DNA of 38,903 bases. Origin: a virus. Below, piece by piece: positions 8,108 through 37,757 of this stretch; position 1 is the stretch's first letter, and each line of letters opens with the position of its first letter. The stretch lies in the IMG/VR virus record IMGVR_UViG_3300046463_000397, positions 1 to 38,903 of that record. One strand, 5' to 3'. A program made the position numbers and the translations under genes. The notes below the pieces were generated by a model, which was not told the DNA's origin, did not search any database, and was given only the letters and a program-made list of their open reading frames with translations.

Positions 8108-8302
8108 TTACTGCTTTGCTGCGGCGACGGTGAGCTCGAGCAGGCGGAACGAATGCTCAGGAATCACTTGCTTGCGGGCGTTGTCGCTGCGCCAGATGCG
8201 CACGGTCTGATTGCTGCGGCCGAGCATTTTCGACACGTCGGTGATGCTCAGCTGGTGCTGCTCCATGAAGTCGAGCAGGCGGGTGGTGCGTTCGTGAATC
8301 AT
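8108..8302 (-). CDS. Small HTH DNA-binding protein A (64 aa)
   Basis: The start is set at the ATG at 8302 (MIHERTTRLLDFMEQH), with AGGAG eight bases upstream. A longer frame to 8461 lacks an RBS and runs through a hairpin. The HTH region is LSITDVSKMLGRSNQTVRIWRSD: helix, turn, recognition helix. It is a paralogue of the 60-aa protein at 8593-8775 (shared ERT.RLL..MEQH, QTVRIWRSDN, VIP, LLEL). These are the only repressor-like proteins near the divergent control region, so a Cro/CI-like pair is inferred. It would be a minimal regulator with no oligomerisation domain. Confidence 0.75.
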   Translation of the reverse strand: MIHERTTRLLDFMEQHQLSITDVSKMLGRSNQTVRIWRSDNARKQVIPEHSFRLLELTVAAAKQ

Positions 8303-8364
8303 GAGGATACTCCTGGTGGTGAGGGTTCGTATAGTGTGCAATGCGCTGTTTGCATCGACGAACA

Positions 8365-8392
8365 AGTATAACGTGCAATTCGCTATTGTCGA
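8365..8392 (-). promoter_or_regulatory. Promoter for HTH protein A and the primase-helicase operon
   Basis: Minus strand TCGACA at 8392-8387, 16-base spacer ending ATTGCACGT, TATACT at 8370-8365. A weaker ATTGCACAC-TATACG follows at about 8340-8328. Confidence 0.65.
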
Positions 8393-8592: not shown

Positions 8593-8775
8593 CTACTTGC
8601 CGCGGTTTGCGATGAGCAGCTCGAGGAGCTTCAGCGCGTCGGCGGGTATCACCTGATTGTCGCTGCGCCAGATGCGCACGGTCTGCGGCGCACGGCCCAG
8701 GATTTCGGCTACGTCGGCAACTTCGAGGCGGTGCTGTTCCATCAGTTCGAGCAGGCGCTTCGTGCGTTCGTTCAT
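8593..8775 (-). CDS. Small HTH DNA-binding protein B (60 aa)
   Basis: The start is at the ATG at 8775 (MNERTKRLLELMEQHRLEV). An extended frame to 8835 would cross the promoter. The HTH is VADVAEILGRAPQTVRIWRSDN, followed by VIPADALKLLELLI. It is a paralogue of protein A, with nearly every landmark in the same place but a shorter linker after RSDN. Its own terminator lies at 8570-8547 and a CATTCGT-N4-ACGAATG dyad at 8833-8850 overlaps its promoter region. Repeated TAACTAT/ATAGTTA motifs at 8766-8800 and 8861-8890 could be additional sites. Probably the lysogeny repressor or its antagonist. Confidence 0.75.
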   Translation of the reverse strand: MNERTKRLLELMEQHRLEVADVAEILGRAPQTVRIWRSDNQVIPADALKLLELLIANRGK

Positions 8776-8832
8776 AGTTAACAGTTGTATCAGATAGTTA
8801 AGCAAGTGACGCAAGTATAAACGGTGCCATAC

Positions 8833-8850
8833 CATTCGTAGGCACGAATG
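8833..8850. promoter_or_regulatory. Dyad operator CATTCGT-AGGC-ACGAATG
   Basis: Perfect 7-bp arms around a 4-base spacer. It lies upstream of a minus-strand TATACT (about 8816-8811) that would serve HTH protein B, close to its -35 region. Same dyad as at 36814-36831. Confidence 0.7.
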
Positions 8851-9444: not shown

Positions 9445-9900
9445 GTGTTGACGAACCTGCCCGATTCCGTCCAGGAGATTGCGGACGTCATCGGTCGAGA
9501 GCGCGCGCTGTACCTGATTGGACAGCTGCCGCGGTACACGAGCAAAGACCACCGATGGAGCGCTGCTGCGCCCTCTCGCGTGCTGCTCTATGTGCCGAAA
9601 GCCTCTCGACTGACTGACCGACACAAGCTTGTGCGGATTCTCGGATGGCGCGACGCAGTGAGGCTTTGCGAGGTGTTTGGCGGTGAGATTCTGAAGCCGG
9701 CGAACTGCTCCTGTATCTACAAGCGATACCGGGACACGCAGATTCTGCGGCTGGCAAAAGACGGACTCGATTCATCCCGAATTTCAGCACTCATCGGCGT
9801 CAGCGCTTCGCAGGTGCGGCTCATTCTGCAACGTATCTCGCAGGAGGAACGCAGCTCCGCAACTGACGACAATGAGCCGTATACCACCAAACACACCTGA
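9445..9900 (+). CDS. Mor/C-like transcription activator of late genes
   Basis: 151 aa from a GTG at 9445 (then TTG ACG) with GGAG four bases upstream. The N-terminal LPDSVQEIADVIGRERALYLIGQLP, the YVPK in the middle and the C-terminal RDTQILRLAKDGLDSSRISALIGVSASQVRLIL match the Mor transcription activator family (a dimerisation segment followed by a wing-less HTH). In Mu-type phages such proteins switch on middle or late transcription. Here it is first in the rightward operon ahead of lysis and head genes, replacing the Ogr activator typical of P2. The last codons carry the degenerate copy of the 20-bp late repeat. Confidence 0.8.
   Translation: MLTNLPDSVQEIADVIGRERALYLIGQLPRYTSKDHRWSAAAPSRVLLYVPKASRLTDRHKLVRILGWRDAVRLCEVFGGEILKPANCSCIYKRYRDTQILRLAKDGLDSSRISALIGVSASQVRLILQRISQEERSSATDDNEPYTTKHT
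9833..9848 (+). repeat. Late dispersed repeat, degenerate copy 1
   Basis: GTATCTCGCAGGAGGA, matching the last 16 bases of the 20-bp element GCGCCTATCTCG-YW-GGAGGA except its first base. It is 60 bases ahead of the first lysis gene. Confidence 0.55.
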
Positions 9901-26345: not shown

Positions 26346-26642
26346 ATGAGCAAGACCGTGTACCAAATGAACCGCTACGGCATGTTCTGTGGCGAGACGG
26401 AAGCCGATGAGAGCCCGCTCGAGCCTGGCGTCTATCACCTGCCGGCGGGCACCGTGGAAATCGCGCCTCCGTCGAGCTGGGCGGACAACGTCTGGCCTCG
26501 CTGGAATGGCTCCGGCTGGGAGCTCGTGAACAAGCCGCAGGCGCCCAGCGCAGAGCAGCGCGCAGCAGCGCTCGCCGCGCAATTGACGCGCCTCCAGGAA
26601 CAAATGGCCGCGCTCCAGAAGGAGATTTCCGGCGACGCGTAA
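26346..26642 (+). CDS. Tail fibre assembly-like protein, 98 aa
   Basis: Start at ATG 26346, ten bases after the fibre stop, with AAAGGAG upstream. MSKTVYQMNRYGMFCGETEADESPLEPGVYHLPAGTVEIAPP and WPRWNGSGWELV match the N-terminal (DUF-type) part of fibre assembly chaperones. The end is a coiled coil (AALAAQLTRLQEQMAALQKEI). Probably needed to trimerise the fibre. Confidence 0.8.
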   Translation: MSKTVYQMNRYGMFCGETEADESPLEPGVYHLPAGTVEIAPPSSWADNVWPRWNGSGWELVNKPQAPSAEQRAAALAAQLTRLQEQMAALQKEISGDA

Positions 26643-26647
26643 TTTAC

Positions 26648-26675
26648 TCGACATGCGAGCATTGCACGCTATACT
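26648..26675 (+). promoter_or_regulatory. Promoter of candidate small RNA 1
   Basis: TCGACA (26648-26653), 16-base spacer ending ATTGCACGC, TATACT (26670-26675). Exact fit to the phage's early promoter class although it lies within the late region. Confidence 0.75.
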
Positions 26676-26681
26676 AAGTCA

Positions 26682-26772
26682 TGCAGCCGACGGGGAAACG
26701 GCGGCATAAAAGGCAAAAGTCTCCTGGGGTTTGGAACCGCCACCCGTTGTGTTGACGGATGGCGGTTTTTTT
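26682..26772 (+). ncRNA. Candidate small RNA 1, about 90 nt
   Basis: A strong promoter ends at 26675 and an intrinsic terminator ends at 26772, with no ORF between. The 5' end folds as ATGC-A-GCCG against CGGC-G-GCAT (26681-26707). A single-stranded middle contains AGTCTCCTGGGG, complementary to Shine-Dalgarno-like sequences such as CCAGGAG. The terminator stem makes the 3' end. It could be a regulatory sRNA or a leader that attenuates entry into the sheath operon. Confidence 0.65.
26737..26772 (+). terminator. Intrinsic terminator of small RNA 1
   Basis: CCGCCA/TGGCGG plus CCGT/ACGG around one mismatch, a 7-base loop, then seven T. Confidence 0.88.
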
Positions 26773-26781
26773 ATGGCCAAT

Positions 26782-26801
26782 GCGCCTATCTCGCTGGAGG
26801 A
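26782..26801 (+). repeat. Late dispersed repeat, copy 5 (noncoding leader of sheath operon)
   Basis: GCGCCTATCTCGCTGGAGGA, 80 bases before the sheath ATG. It falls in a 21-codon ORF (26773-26838, MANAPISLEDYAFQ and onward) that has no RBS and is probably not a gene. Confidence 0.75.
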
Positions 26802-26880
26802 TTACGCATTTCAGGCTATACACAATATGCAAGTGTAAGTATCTCCCTGCAACTGTGCCCTCTAAAGGACCCTCGCACAA

Positions 26881-28302
26881 ATGACTGCATCTTTTCTTCA
26901 TGGTGTCGAAGTTCTCGACATCGACGATGGCCCGCGTCCCATTTCGGTGGTCGCGACGTCCGTCATCGGCCTGGTGGGCACTGCTCCCGACGCTGACGCT
27001 TCCGTATTTCCGCTCAACACTCCCGTGCTCATCGCCGGCTCGCGCTCGACTGCCGCGAAGCTCGACCTGACGGGCAACGGCCTCGGCACGCTGCCGGACG
27101 CGATGGACTCGATTTTCGACCAGGCTGGTGCGGTAGTCATCGTCATTCGTGTCGAAGACGGCGCTGACGAAAAGACCACGCTGGCGAACGTCATCGGCGG
27201 CACCGACCCGGTGACCGGCCAGTACAAGGGCGTGCAAGCCCTGCTCGGCGCGGAGAACGCGACGGGTTACGCACCGCGGATTTTCATCGCTCCTGGCTTC
27301 ACGCATCAGCGCGTGACGGGCGGCGTCATCGCTGTCGGCTTCACGGCCGGCGCAGGCCTCGTGGACGGCTCGTACACGATGCAGGCTGACTCTGGCGTCG
27401 CAACGGCTGTCGCGACCGTCAAGGGCGGCTCTGTGACCGCTGTCGCAGTGTCGAAGCCTGGCTCCAACTATCTCGTCGCTCCGACGTTCACGCTGCCTGC
27501 AGCTGCCGGCACGCCGACCGAAGCGCCGACCTTCACCGCCACGATTGGCGCAGCTGGCAACGCTGTTGTCGCTGAAATGGTTGGCATCGCCGACCGCATG
27601 CGCGCCGTCATCATCCAGGACGGCTCCAATACGAACGACGCCGACGCAATCGCGATGGCGGGCGACTTCGGCAGCAAGCGCGTGTACCTCGTCGACCCGC
27701 GCGGCGTGAAGACCGACAGCAACGGCAACCTGGTGACGGCGTACGCCTCCGCCATGGTCGCAGGCCTCATCGCCCAAATCGACAACACGAAGGGCTTCTG
27801 GTGGTCGCCGTCGAACCAGGCAATCAATGGTATCCAGGCTACGAGCCGTGCCATCGACTTCAAACTGGGCGACCCGTCGTGCCGCGCGAACGTGCTCAAC
27901 GGCGCGAACGTGGCAACCATCATCCGCAGCAAGGGCTTCAAGCTCTGGGGCAACCGCACGCTGTCGAGCGACCCGAAGTGGAAGTTCCTCTGCGTGGTTC
28001 GGACTGCCGACATCATCAACGATTCGCTGCTCGCCGCTCACCAGTGGGCCGTGGACCAGGGCATCACGAAGAACTACGTGACGGAAGTCGTCGAAGGCGT
28101 GAACGCGTTCCTGCGCAGCATGGTTACGCAAGGCGCAATCCTGGGCGGCACGTGCTGGGCGGACCCGGACCTCAACTCGGCATCGGCAATCGCTGACGGC
28201 GAAATCTACTTCGATTTCGACTTCACGCCCGCCTACCCGGCTGAGCACATCACGTTCCGTTCGCATCTCGTGAACGACTACGTCGAGACGATTTTCGACT
28301 AA
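26881..28302 (+). CDS. Contractile tail sheath protein (P2 FI-like) with inserted beta domain
   Basis: 473 aa against about 396 in P2. FLHGVEVLDIDDGPRPISVVATSVIGLVGTAPDAD is the classic start. RIFIAPGFTHQ (133-143) and IADRMRAVIIQDG (236 onward) are normally close neighbours, but here about 85 residues (146-229) are inserted, with GGSVTAVAVSKPGSNYLVAPTFTL typical of small surface beta-sandwiches. The remaining sheath core (KRVYLVDPRGVKTDSNG, NLWWSPSN-type segment, LWGNRTLSSDPKWKF) is intact. Contracts to drive the tube. RBS AAAGGA. Confidence 0.95.
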   Translation: MTASFLHGVEVLDIDDGPRPISVVATSVIGLVGTAPDADASVFPLNTPVLIAGSRSTAAKLDLTGNGLGTLPDAMDSIFDQAGAVVIVIRVEDGADEKTTLANVIGGTDPVTGQYKGVQALLGAENATGYAPRIFIAPGFTHQRVTGGVIAVGFTAGAGLVDGSYTMQADSGVATAVATVKGGSVTAVAVSKPGSNYLVAPTFTLPAAAGTPTEAPTFTATIGAAGNAVVAEMVGIADRMRAVIIQDGSNTNDADAIAMAGDFGSKRVYLVDPRGVKTDSNGNLVTAYASAMVAGLIAQIDNTKGFWWSPSNQAINGIQATSRAIDFKLGDPSCRANVLNGANVATIIRSKGFKLWGNRTLSSDPKWKFLCVVRTADIINDSLLAAHQWAVDQGITKNYVTEVVEGVNAFLRSMVTQGAILGGTCWADPDLNSASAIADGEIYFDFDFTPAYPAEHITFRSHLVNDYVETIFD

Positions 28303-28364: not shown

Positions 28365-28871
28365 ATGGCAGCTCGCGACGTCCTTAAGAACCTCAACCTG
28401 TTCGTGGACGGAAAAGGAATGGCTGGTCAAGTGCAGGATGTTGACCCTCCGAAGCTCGCTCAGAAGACCGAAGACTTTCACGGTGGCGGCATGGCTGCTC
28501 CGTTCAAGGTGACGGTCGGCATGGAAGCGCTCGAAGCGAGCTTCTCGCTCCTGGCCTACGACAAAGACGTGCTGGCCCTCTTCGGCCTCACTGAAGGCTC
28601 CAGCACCTCGCTGACCATCCGCGGCGCACTCGAGTCGTCTGACGGCACCGTGACGCCGGTGTGCATGACCATGCGCGGCAAGGTCACGTCGATGGACCCG
28701 GGCTCGTGGAAGCCGGGCGAGCTCCCGTCGCTGAAGTGCCAGATGGCGCTGAACTACTACAAGCTCCAGCACGGCCGGACGACCGTCACGGAAATCGACG
28801 TCGAGAACATGATGTGCAGCATCAACGGCAAAGATGTGCTGGCGGCGTTCCGCAGCGCGCTGGGCCTGTAA
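28365..28871 (+). CDS. Tail tube protein (P2 FII-like)
   Basis: 168 aa, near the P2 tube (172). DVLKNLNLFVDGKGMAGQVQDVDPPKLAQKTEDFHGGGMAAPFKVTVGMEALEASFSL is the family start, and ALNYYKLQHGRTTVTEIDVENMMCSINGKDVLAAFRSALGL the end. Hexamer rings stack to make the tube inside the sheath. GAAAGGAG before the ATG. A GC hairpin (CGGGGCG/CGCCCCG) lies in the gap after the sheath gene. Confidence 0.96.
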   Translation: MAARDVLKNLNLFVDGKGMAGQVQDVDPPKLAQKTEDFHGGGMAAPFKVTVGMEALEASFSLLAYDKDVLALFGLTEGSSTSLTIRGALESSDGTVTPVCMTMRGKVTSMDPGSWKPGELPSLKCQMALNYYKLQHGRTTVTEIDVENMMCSINGKDVLAAFRSALGL

Positions 28872-37038: not shown

Positions 37039-37314
37039 ATGTTCATTAAACCGAACATCCACACGCTCACGGCTGGCAAGGTGCGCGGCTGGGGCATCAA
37101 CGTTCCGCTTGACGCCGCGATTCCTGACGCCGCCACGGTTGAGCCGTGTGAGGTAGCTGTCGCGATGGACATGCAGTCGCGGCGCGCTGAAGGCGTCGTC
37201 GTCGTGCACGCCAATTTCGAAGCGCCGTTCCGCTGGACCGACACCGACGGCAGTCCGTGCGCCTGGTACGTCGGCGCGATTCAGTTCAATGCAAATGAAG
37301 GAGTAGCAGCATGA
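37039..37314 (+). CDS. Hypothetical protein, 91 aa
   Basis: Begins MFIKPNIHTLTAGKVRGWGINV, beta-rich (VEPCEVAVAMDMQSRRAEGVVVVHANFEAPFRWTD). Ends FNANEGVAA; the stop overlaps the start of the outer-membrane protein gene (ATGA). No signal peptide. No family recognised. Confidence 0.65.
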   Translation: MFIKPNIHTLTAGKVRGWGINVPLDAAIPDAATVEPCEVAVAMDMQSRRAEGVVVVHANFEAPFRWTDTDGSPCAWYVGAIQFNANEGVAA

Positions 37315-37757
37315 AGAAAACCATCCTGGCCCTGACGGCCGCCCTCGCCTGCTCCGCTGCTCACGCTGAGTTCCTGGACCGTGTCGACCTGTCGCCGGCG
37401 CTGGTGAGCGGGTTCGTGACGCATCACATCAACGTGCACACGGACAAGTACAACGAATTCAACTACGGCATCGGATACCGGTTCGCGAGCCCAAGCATCA
37501 TCGTGGGCGTGTATCACAACAGCGACTACAAGACGAGCTTCTACGCGGGCTACGAGGCACGGTGGCGCATCGTGAATCACCTGGAGGTCGGCGCGGTCGC
37601 CGGGCTGGTGTCTGGCTACAAGCATCACGTCGTGCTGCCGCTGCTGATGCCTGAAGTGGTTGTGACGGCCGGCAGGTTCGAGCTGGCTGGCGCAGTCTCG
37701 CCGCACATCGCAGACATGCCCGCGCTTGTCACCGCTCAACTTCGTTTCAAGTTCTGA
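37311..37757 (+). CDS. Candidate outer-membrane beta-barrel protein, 148 aa
   Basis: A clear Sec signal (MKKTILALTAALACSAAHA, cut before EFLD). The mature 129 residues alternate hydrophobic/polar strands with aromatic belts (FNYGIGYRFASPSIIVGVYH, YKTSFYAGYEARWRIV, LEVGAVAGLVSGYKHH, FELAGAVSP), and the last residue is Phe (TAQLRFKF), the BAM-recognised end. Eight strands fit the size. Placed behind a repressor operator with other early genes, not in the tail module. Phage-encoded barrels such as lambda Lom change the host surface. Receptor blocking is a reasonable inference but unproven. Confidence 0.75.
   Translation: MKKTILALTAALACSAAHAEFLDRVDLSPALVSGFVTHHINVHTDKYNEFNYGIGYRFASPSIIVGVYHNSDYKTSFYAGYEARWRIVNHLEVGAVAGLVSGYKHHVVLPLLMPEVVVTAGRFELAGAVSPHIADMPALVTAQLRFKF

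Follow-up and report, generated by a model that had tools for sequence, protein, structure and literature searches.

Layout of the locus between the tail fibre assembly and tail sheath genes

The analysed virus record, called the window in the following, comprises 38,903 bases and probably represents a complete genome, because it carries a direct terminal repeat of 127 bases. Judged by its proteins, the phage belongs to the contractile-tailed phages and is near Burkholderia phage Mica and Pseudomonas phage PPpW-3. Vibrio phage VHML is further off, and a protein comparison revealed that its sheath is related to the window sheath; phage VP882 is a VHML-like myovirus. The closest relative that was found is G003 (IMGVR_UViG_3300047320_000119), which has a sheath that is 89% identical and is broadly collinear with the window, with a DNA identity of about 82% in the tail region. 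A ParA-like partition protein is encoded at 1622-2305 on the minus strand, which suggests a plasmid-like prophage, and no protelomerase was seen among the scanned proteins, which were a subset of the open reading frames.

A short unit was found between the tail fibre assembly gene, the stop codon of which is at 26642, and the tail sheath gene, which starts at 26881. The following features were assigned to the unit, to its neighbourhood and to the promoter class to which it belongs:

26648..26675, plus strand: early-class promoter TCGACA-N16-TATACT, with exact copies in the window and in G003
26681..26772, plus strand: predicted small RNA of about 92 nt, its start placed by the spacing from the -10 hexamer and its end by the T run
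26681..26707, plus strand: predicted 5' hairpin AUGC-A-GCCG / CGGC-G-GCAU with the loop ACGGGGAAA, stem pairing kept in G003
26717..26732, plus strand: invariant segment AAGTCTCCTGGGGTTT, 16/16 identical in G003; a possible seed, or the 3' strand of a pseudoknot with the loop sequence GGGGA
26735..26772, plus strand: intrinsic terminator with a run of seven T, several stem changes in G003 keeping the pairing
26783..26803, plus strand: late-operon box GCCTATCTCGCTGGAGGATT, one of five copies, adjoining the RNA but outside of it
8392 (minus; primase operon), 5365 and 3678 (minus; before genes) and 36770 (plus; right-end operon): other exact copies of the promoter
9403 (plus; Mor-like gene), 35206 (plus; helicase) and 35169 (minus; leftward gene): related promoter cores

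The promoter consists of TCGACA (26648-26653), a 16-nt spacer and TATACT (26670-26675). This exact arrangement occurs five times in the window, including the copy at the small RNA, and not once in 100 shuffles; G003 has four copies, again with the small RNA copy among them. An 18-nt core of the promoter, GCATTGCACGCTATACTA, is found in identical form before the gene for the Mor-like late activator. The first-pass annotation had described a perfect early-class promoter. It is indeed perfect for the phage's own class, but it matches the sigma-70 consensus at 10 of 12 positions. The transcription start that had been expected at 26682 fits well, seven bases past the -10 hexamer. The additional label of a prophage-expressed RNA was an assumption that found no support, as the same promoter class precedes the primase, the helicase and the Mor-like activator. 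In the class as a whole (3678-, 5365-, 5389-, 8392-, 9403+, 26648+, 35169-, 35206+ and 36770+) the spacer bases ATTnCACGC are conserved in addition to the hexamers, which suggests that a phage regulator binds at these promoters.

Two further observations concern genes elsewhere in the window. The right-end operon with the early promoter includes a gene at 37311-37757 (plus strand) for a protein of 148 amino acids that matches the PagP family phrog_3600 (lipid A acylation), and at this gene the DNA identity with G003 is 91%, above that of the surroundings. Two similar small helix-turn-helix-like proteins were recognized by eye in tandem at 8108-8378 and 8593-8835 on the minus strand, one of which matches a phage repressor family.

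The strong terminator and the non-coding character of the approximately 90-nt unit, both of which had been proposed before, were borne out. The terminator has the form AACCGCCACCCGU-loop-ACGGAUGGCGGUU and is followed by seven T at 26766-26772. No protein-family open reading frame was found between the promoter and the terminator, and no conserved protein is encoded. An ATG at 26681, at the expected transcription start and 5-6 nt past the -10 hexamer in both phages, could belong to a leaderless micro-gene for a short basic peptide of 24 codons. This reading is very improbable, because a one-base insertion changes the frame in G003, which stops after 9 codons, so that the peptide is not conserved, and the base changes suit RNA stems better than codons. 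An own promoter together with an intrinsic terminator and without a conserved open reading frame is the arrangement of trans-acting phage sRNAs, and it is the arrangement that was found here.

The unit is directed towards the sheath operon, from which its end is separated by 108 nt, and with a promoter, a short RNA and a terminator ahead of late genes it resembles the lambda pR'-6S RNA-tR' leader. It could thus give rise to a short leader RNA for the late tail operon, with a constant promoter, a stop at the terminator and, late in infection, antitermination by a phage factor into the sheath operon. However, the promoter belongs to the early class, in contrast to the lambda leader, and the sheath operon has a late box of its own just past the terminator. 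Boxes of the form CCTATCTCGC(A/T)GGAGGAA (CCTATCTCGCnGGAGGAA-like) were found at 9832, 13978, 16825, 20712 and 26785, all on the plus strand (0.06 expected in the window), and all five have counterparts at the corresponding places in G003. The Mor-like late activator probably binds to these boxes, and the box at 26783-26803 would probably be the activator site for the sheath operon. Its position at 26785, 12 bases past the small RNA terminator, speaks for a separate start of the sheath operon that is independent of read-through of the unit. A Mor-like late activator is encoded, and the only other transcription-regulation family among the scanned proteins is that of the repressor-like helix-turn-helix protein. 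A leader function therefore seems quite unlikely.

Conservation in G003 and folding of the predicted RNA

G003 keeps the unit at the same place, directly after its promoter at L003:2771. The two phages agree in 12/12 positions of the promoter hexamers, 12/16 of the spacer, 24/27 of the 5' hairpin, 4/9 of the linker (44%), 16/16 of the segment AAGTCTCCTGGGGTTT, 25/33 of the terminator stem-loop and 7/7 of the T run, and the DNA after the terminator is identical in 83/108 positions (77%). In the 5' stem, a C-G pair of the window is replaced by U-G and an A.G mismatch by C-G. In the terminator stem, A-U is replaced by U-G, a C.A mismatch by C-G, and C-G by U-G. These changes mostly keep the pairing, which, in a comparison of two sequences only, is suggestive of a retained RNA structure.

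This pattern bears on the possibility that the promoter is functional and the RNA is inert, i.e., that an early-class promoter or regulator site lies before an old fibre-operon terminator and serves as a scattered regulator binding site or as a transcription insulator. The operator-like sharing of spacer bases and hexamers by several promoters of the class would be in line with such a role, and so would the presence of a terminator without a promoter at this spot in relatives. In contrast, an inert RNA would hardly explain that the 16-nt segment, which lies apart from promoter and terminator, is unchanged in G003 whereas the adjoining parts have diverged, or that the 5' stem keeps its pairing. 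This explanation is thus regarded as rather unlikely. A small RNA gene with an early-class promoter is the most likely reading, supported by the exact promoter repeats and by the conservation in G003.

The 5' hairpin that had been noted from the sequence was also obtained in the predicted fold. The RNA as a whole is only modestly more stable than shuffled sequences (z -1.6), and its stability comes mostly from the terminator. The anti-Shine-Dalgarno-like sequence AGTCTCCTGGGG, which contains UCUCC, is present at 26718-26729 as annotated, but it is not necessarily unpaired, as it can pair with the loop of the 5' hairpin. In the minimum-energy fold of G003, UCUCC pairs with GGGGA of the hairpin loop, and in the window, for the part before the terminator, the fold with this pairing is within 0.3 kcal/mol. 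The local 5' hairpin and the long-range GGGGA/UCUCC pairing thus have almost the same energy in the window and in G003, and AGTCTCCTGGGG may therefore be masked. Both pairings could be present together in an H-type pseudoknot, the third loop of which would be A-rich. Covariation is absent at the GGGGA/UCUCC positions, since they are invariant between the window and G003.

Candidate targets in the phage genome

It had been proposed that the RNA pairs with CCAGGAG at the ribosome-binding sites of the early genes at 8302 and 35127 and with a stretch early in the Mor-like gene. The complementary sites exist in the window, namely CCAGGAG at 8316-8310 and at 35142-35136 (both minus strand) and TCCAGGAGATT at 9470-9480. 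Regulation via these sites did not withstand the comparison with G003, which reads CCGGAG at the first site, keeps CAGGAG only, an ordinary ribosome-binding site, at the second, and reads TTCAGGAAATC, with two broken pairs, where the Mor-like gene of the window has its match of 11 nt (near 9473). In total, the window contains 14 copies of CCAGGAG, on both strands and mostly inside genes.

No set of phage targets rose above the controls, neither genome-wide against shuffled seeds nor at gene starts against controls that keep UCUCCU. Over all aligned positions, the best conserved duplex had an energy of -19.4 kcal/mol, which 17 of 31 shuffled seeds equalled or surpassed. For duplexes at gene starts, which were called by a simple codon-position rule that admits some false open reading frames, 61 of 200 UCUCCU-keeping controls matched the score of the best target. 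Among the phage candidates with a plausible ribosome site, the start of the tail-tube gene at 28365 is conserved best, though not significant; here AGGAGACU forms a perfect duplex with AGUCUCCU in the window as well as in G003. The start of the ParA gene at 2305 is also among the best conserved candidates, again without significance. The host may be the main target of the sRNA.

A separate observation was made in G003, which has an extra gene after an early promoter (L105 14366-14405, minus strand) that is seemingly absent from the window. The sequence AATCCCAGGAG lies before its ATG and matches the sRNA segment over 11 bases, with one G-U pair.

The antirepressor genes of several phages are controlled by small antisense RNAs (PMC12197685), and a c4/sar-type RNA with a cis antisense or immunity role against a complementary phage mRNA was considered as well. 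Such an RNA would have extended complementarity to a phage mRNA. Beyond its own complement, the longest match of the searched segment in the window is 12 nt with two G-U pairs and lies inside a gene, and a facing transcript is absent at the locus, which makes this type extremely improbable.

Distribution, known phage sRNAs and proposed function

The unit was found in two phages only, the window and G003. Exact patterns of the hairpin, the segment and the promoter retrieved G003 only from 2.9 million viral contigs, apart from unrelated chance matches, and similar DNA in phage and plasmid records amounted to chance matches to the terminator. Among 398 genomes from the family to which the Paraburkholderia genome G010 belongs, none had the hairpin pattern. 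A covariance model built from the two sequences gave no match in 14 related records and prophage-bearing genomes, and within both phages its other matches were weak and fell on other promoters only. The unit thus appears to be young or narrowly distributed, because neither the pattern scans nor the covariance model yielded a third copy. According to the annotation, absence of the unit from relatives that keep both flanking genes would refute it, and the outcome is divided: G003 keeps the unit, but Mica and other, more distant relatives lack it although their sheath gene and part of the fibre-assembly gene are retained. Ahead of the late promoter region, they have either just a terminator or no such element. 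The early promoter and the hairpin are absent at this locus from the more distant relatives including Mica, while the fibre-operon terminator is at the same place in many relatives, always without a promoter. The terminator may therefore predate any sRNA, and the unit perhaps originated when an early promoter was placed before the old fibre-operon terminator.

Rfam searches of the whole window gave no family at the gathering score for the unit, and nothing credible was obtained at loose thresholds. Burkholderia sRNA 2 (BcKCsr2, RF02883) was regarded as a chance match, with 9.3 and 21.8 bits against a gathering score of 40 bits; it shares a similar terminator hairpin, and the remainder aligns over the promoter of the window. 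A type III antitoxin RNA of the ToxI kind was rejected, as the unit is single, lacks tandem repeats and is followed by a tail sheath gene and not by a toxin gene. The hairpin and CUCCU resemble the fluoride riboswitch, but this likeness was dropped since the unit lacks the second stem and no crcB match was listed at E values up to 10.

Only a limited number of phages are known to encode small RNAs. One of them is PreS (LPR1) of lambda, an sRNA of about 88 nt that acts in trans and Hfq-dependently on the host dnaN and is thought to serve the lytic cycle (PMC12197685). The window RNA is likewise a short phage RNA for which action in trans and Hfq are proposed; the likeness is one of description, and no sequence relation is claimed. 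In contrast to the window unit, the PreS gene lies between ea10 and ral and not in the tail region, and its target and Hfq binding have been shown, whereas those of the window RNA are hypothetical. The temperate phage VP882 encodes VpdS, an sRNA that is listed with about 50 nt and acts with Hfq on phage and host RNAs (PMC12197685), and here, too, the likeness is one of description. The window unit would thus be a new predicted member of a kind of RNA already known from phages.

Taken together, a functional phage sRNA gene that acts most likely by pairing is the reading we favour with some confidence. That a real sRNA is transcribed is judged to be likely from the promoter, the terminator and the conservation, and the chances that it works by pairing in trans are about even. 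The host sigma-70 RNA polymerase would start at about 26681-26682 from the promoter class of the early and replication genes, and the product would be a stand-alone RNA of about 92 nt with the 5' hairpin, the invariant segment containing UCUCC and a terminator hairpin with seven U. This RNA would act in trans by base-pairing via AAGUCUCCUGGGGUUU with Shine-Dalgarno regions of host or phage mRNAs. Binding of Hfq is probable, the U7 tail being the one indication of it, and the GGGGA/UCUCC pairing would keep the segment in a pseudoknot, to be opened by a target or by Hfq.

It is tempting to speculate, though unlikely in this full form, that the early RNA hides its anti-ribosome-site segment in an H-type pseudoknot and exposes it only upon contact with a host target or protein. 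If so, the phage would reprogram host translation when it starts replicating. If there is no transcript or target, the unit would be a plain regulatory site ahead of the tail operon. With its defined promoter class and a sister phage that carries it, the unit offers a cheap test case for the use of RNA early in infection by plasmid-like phages of the Burkholderia type.
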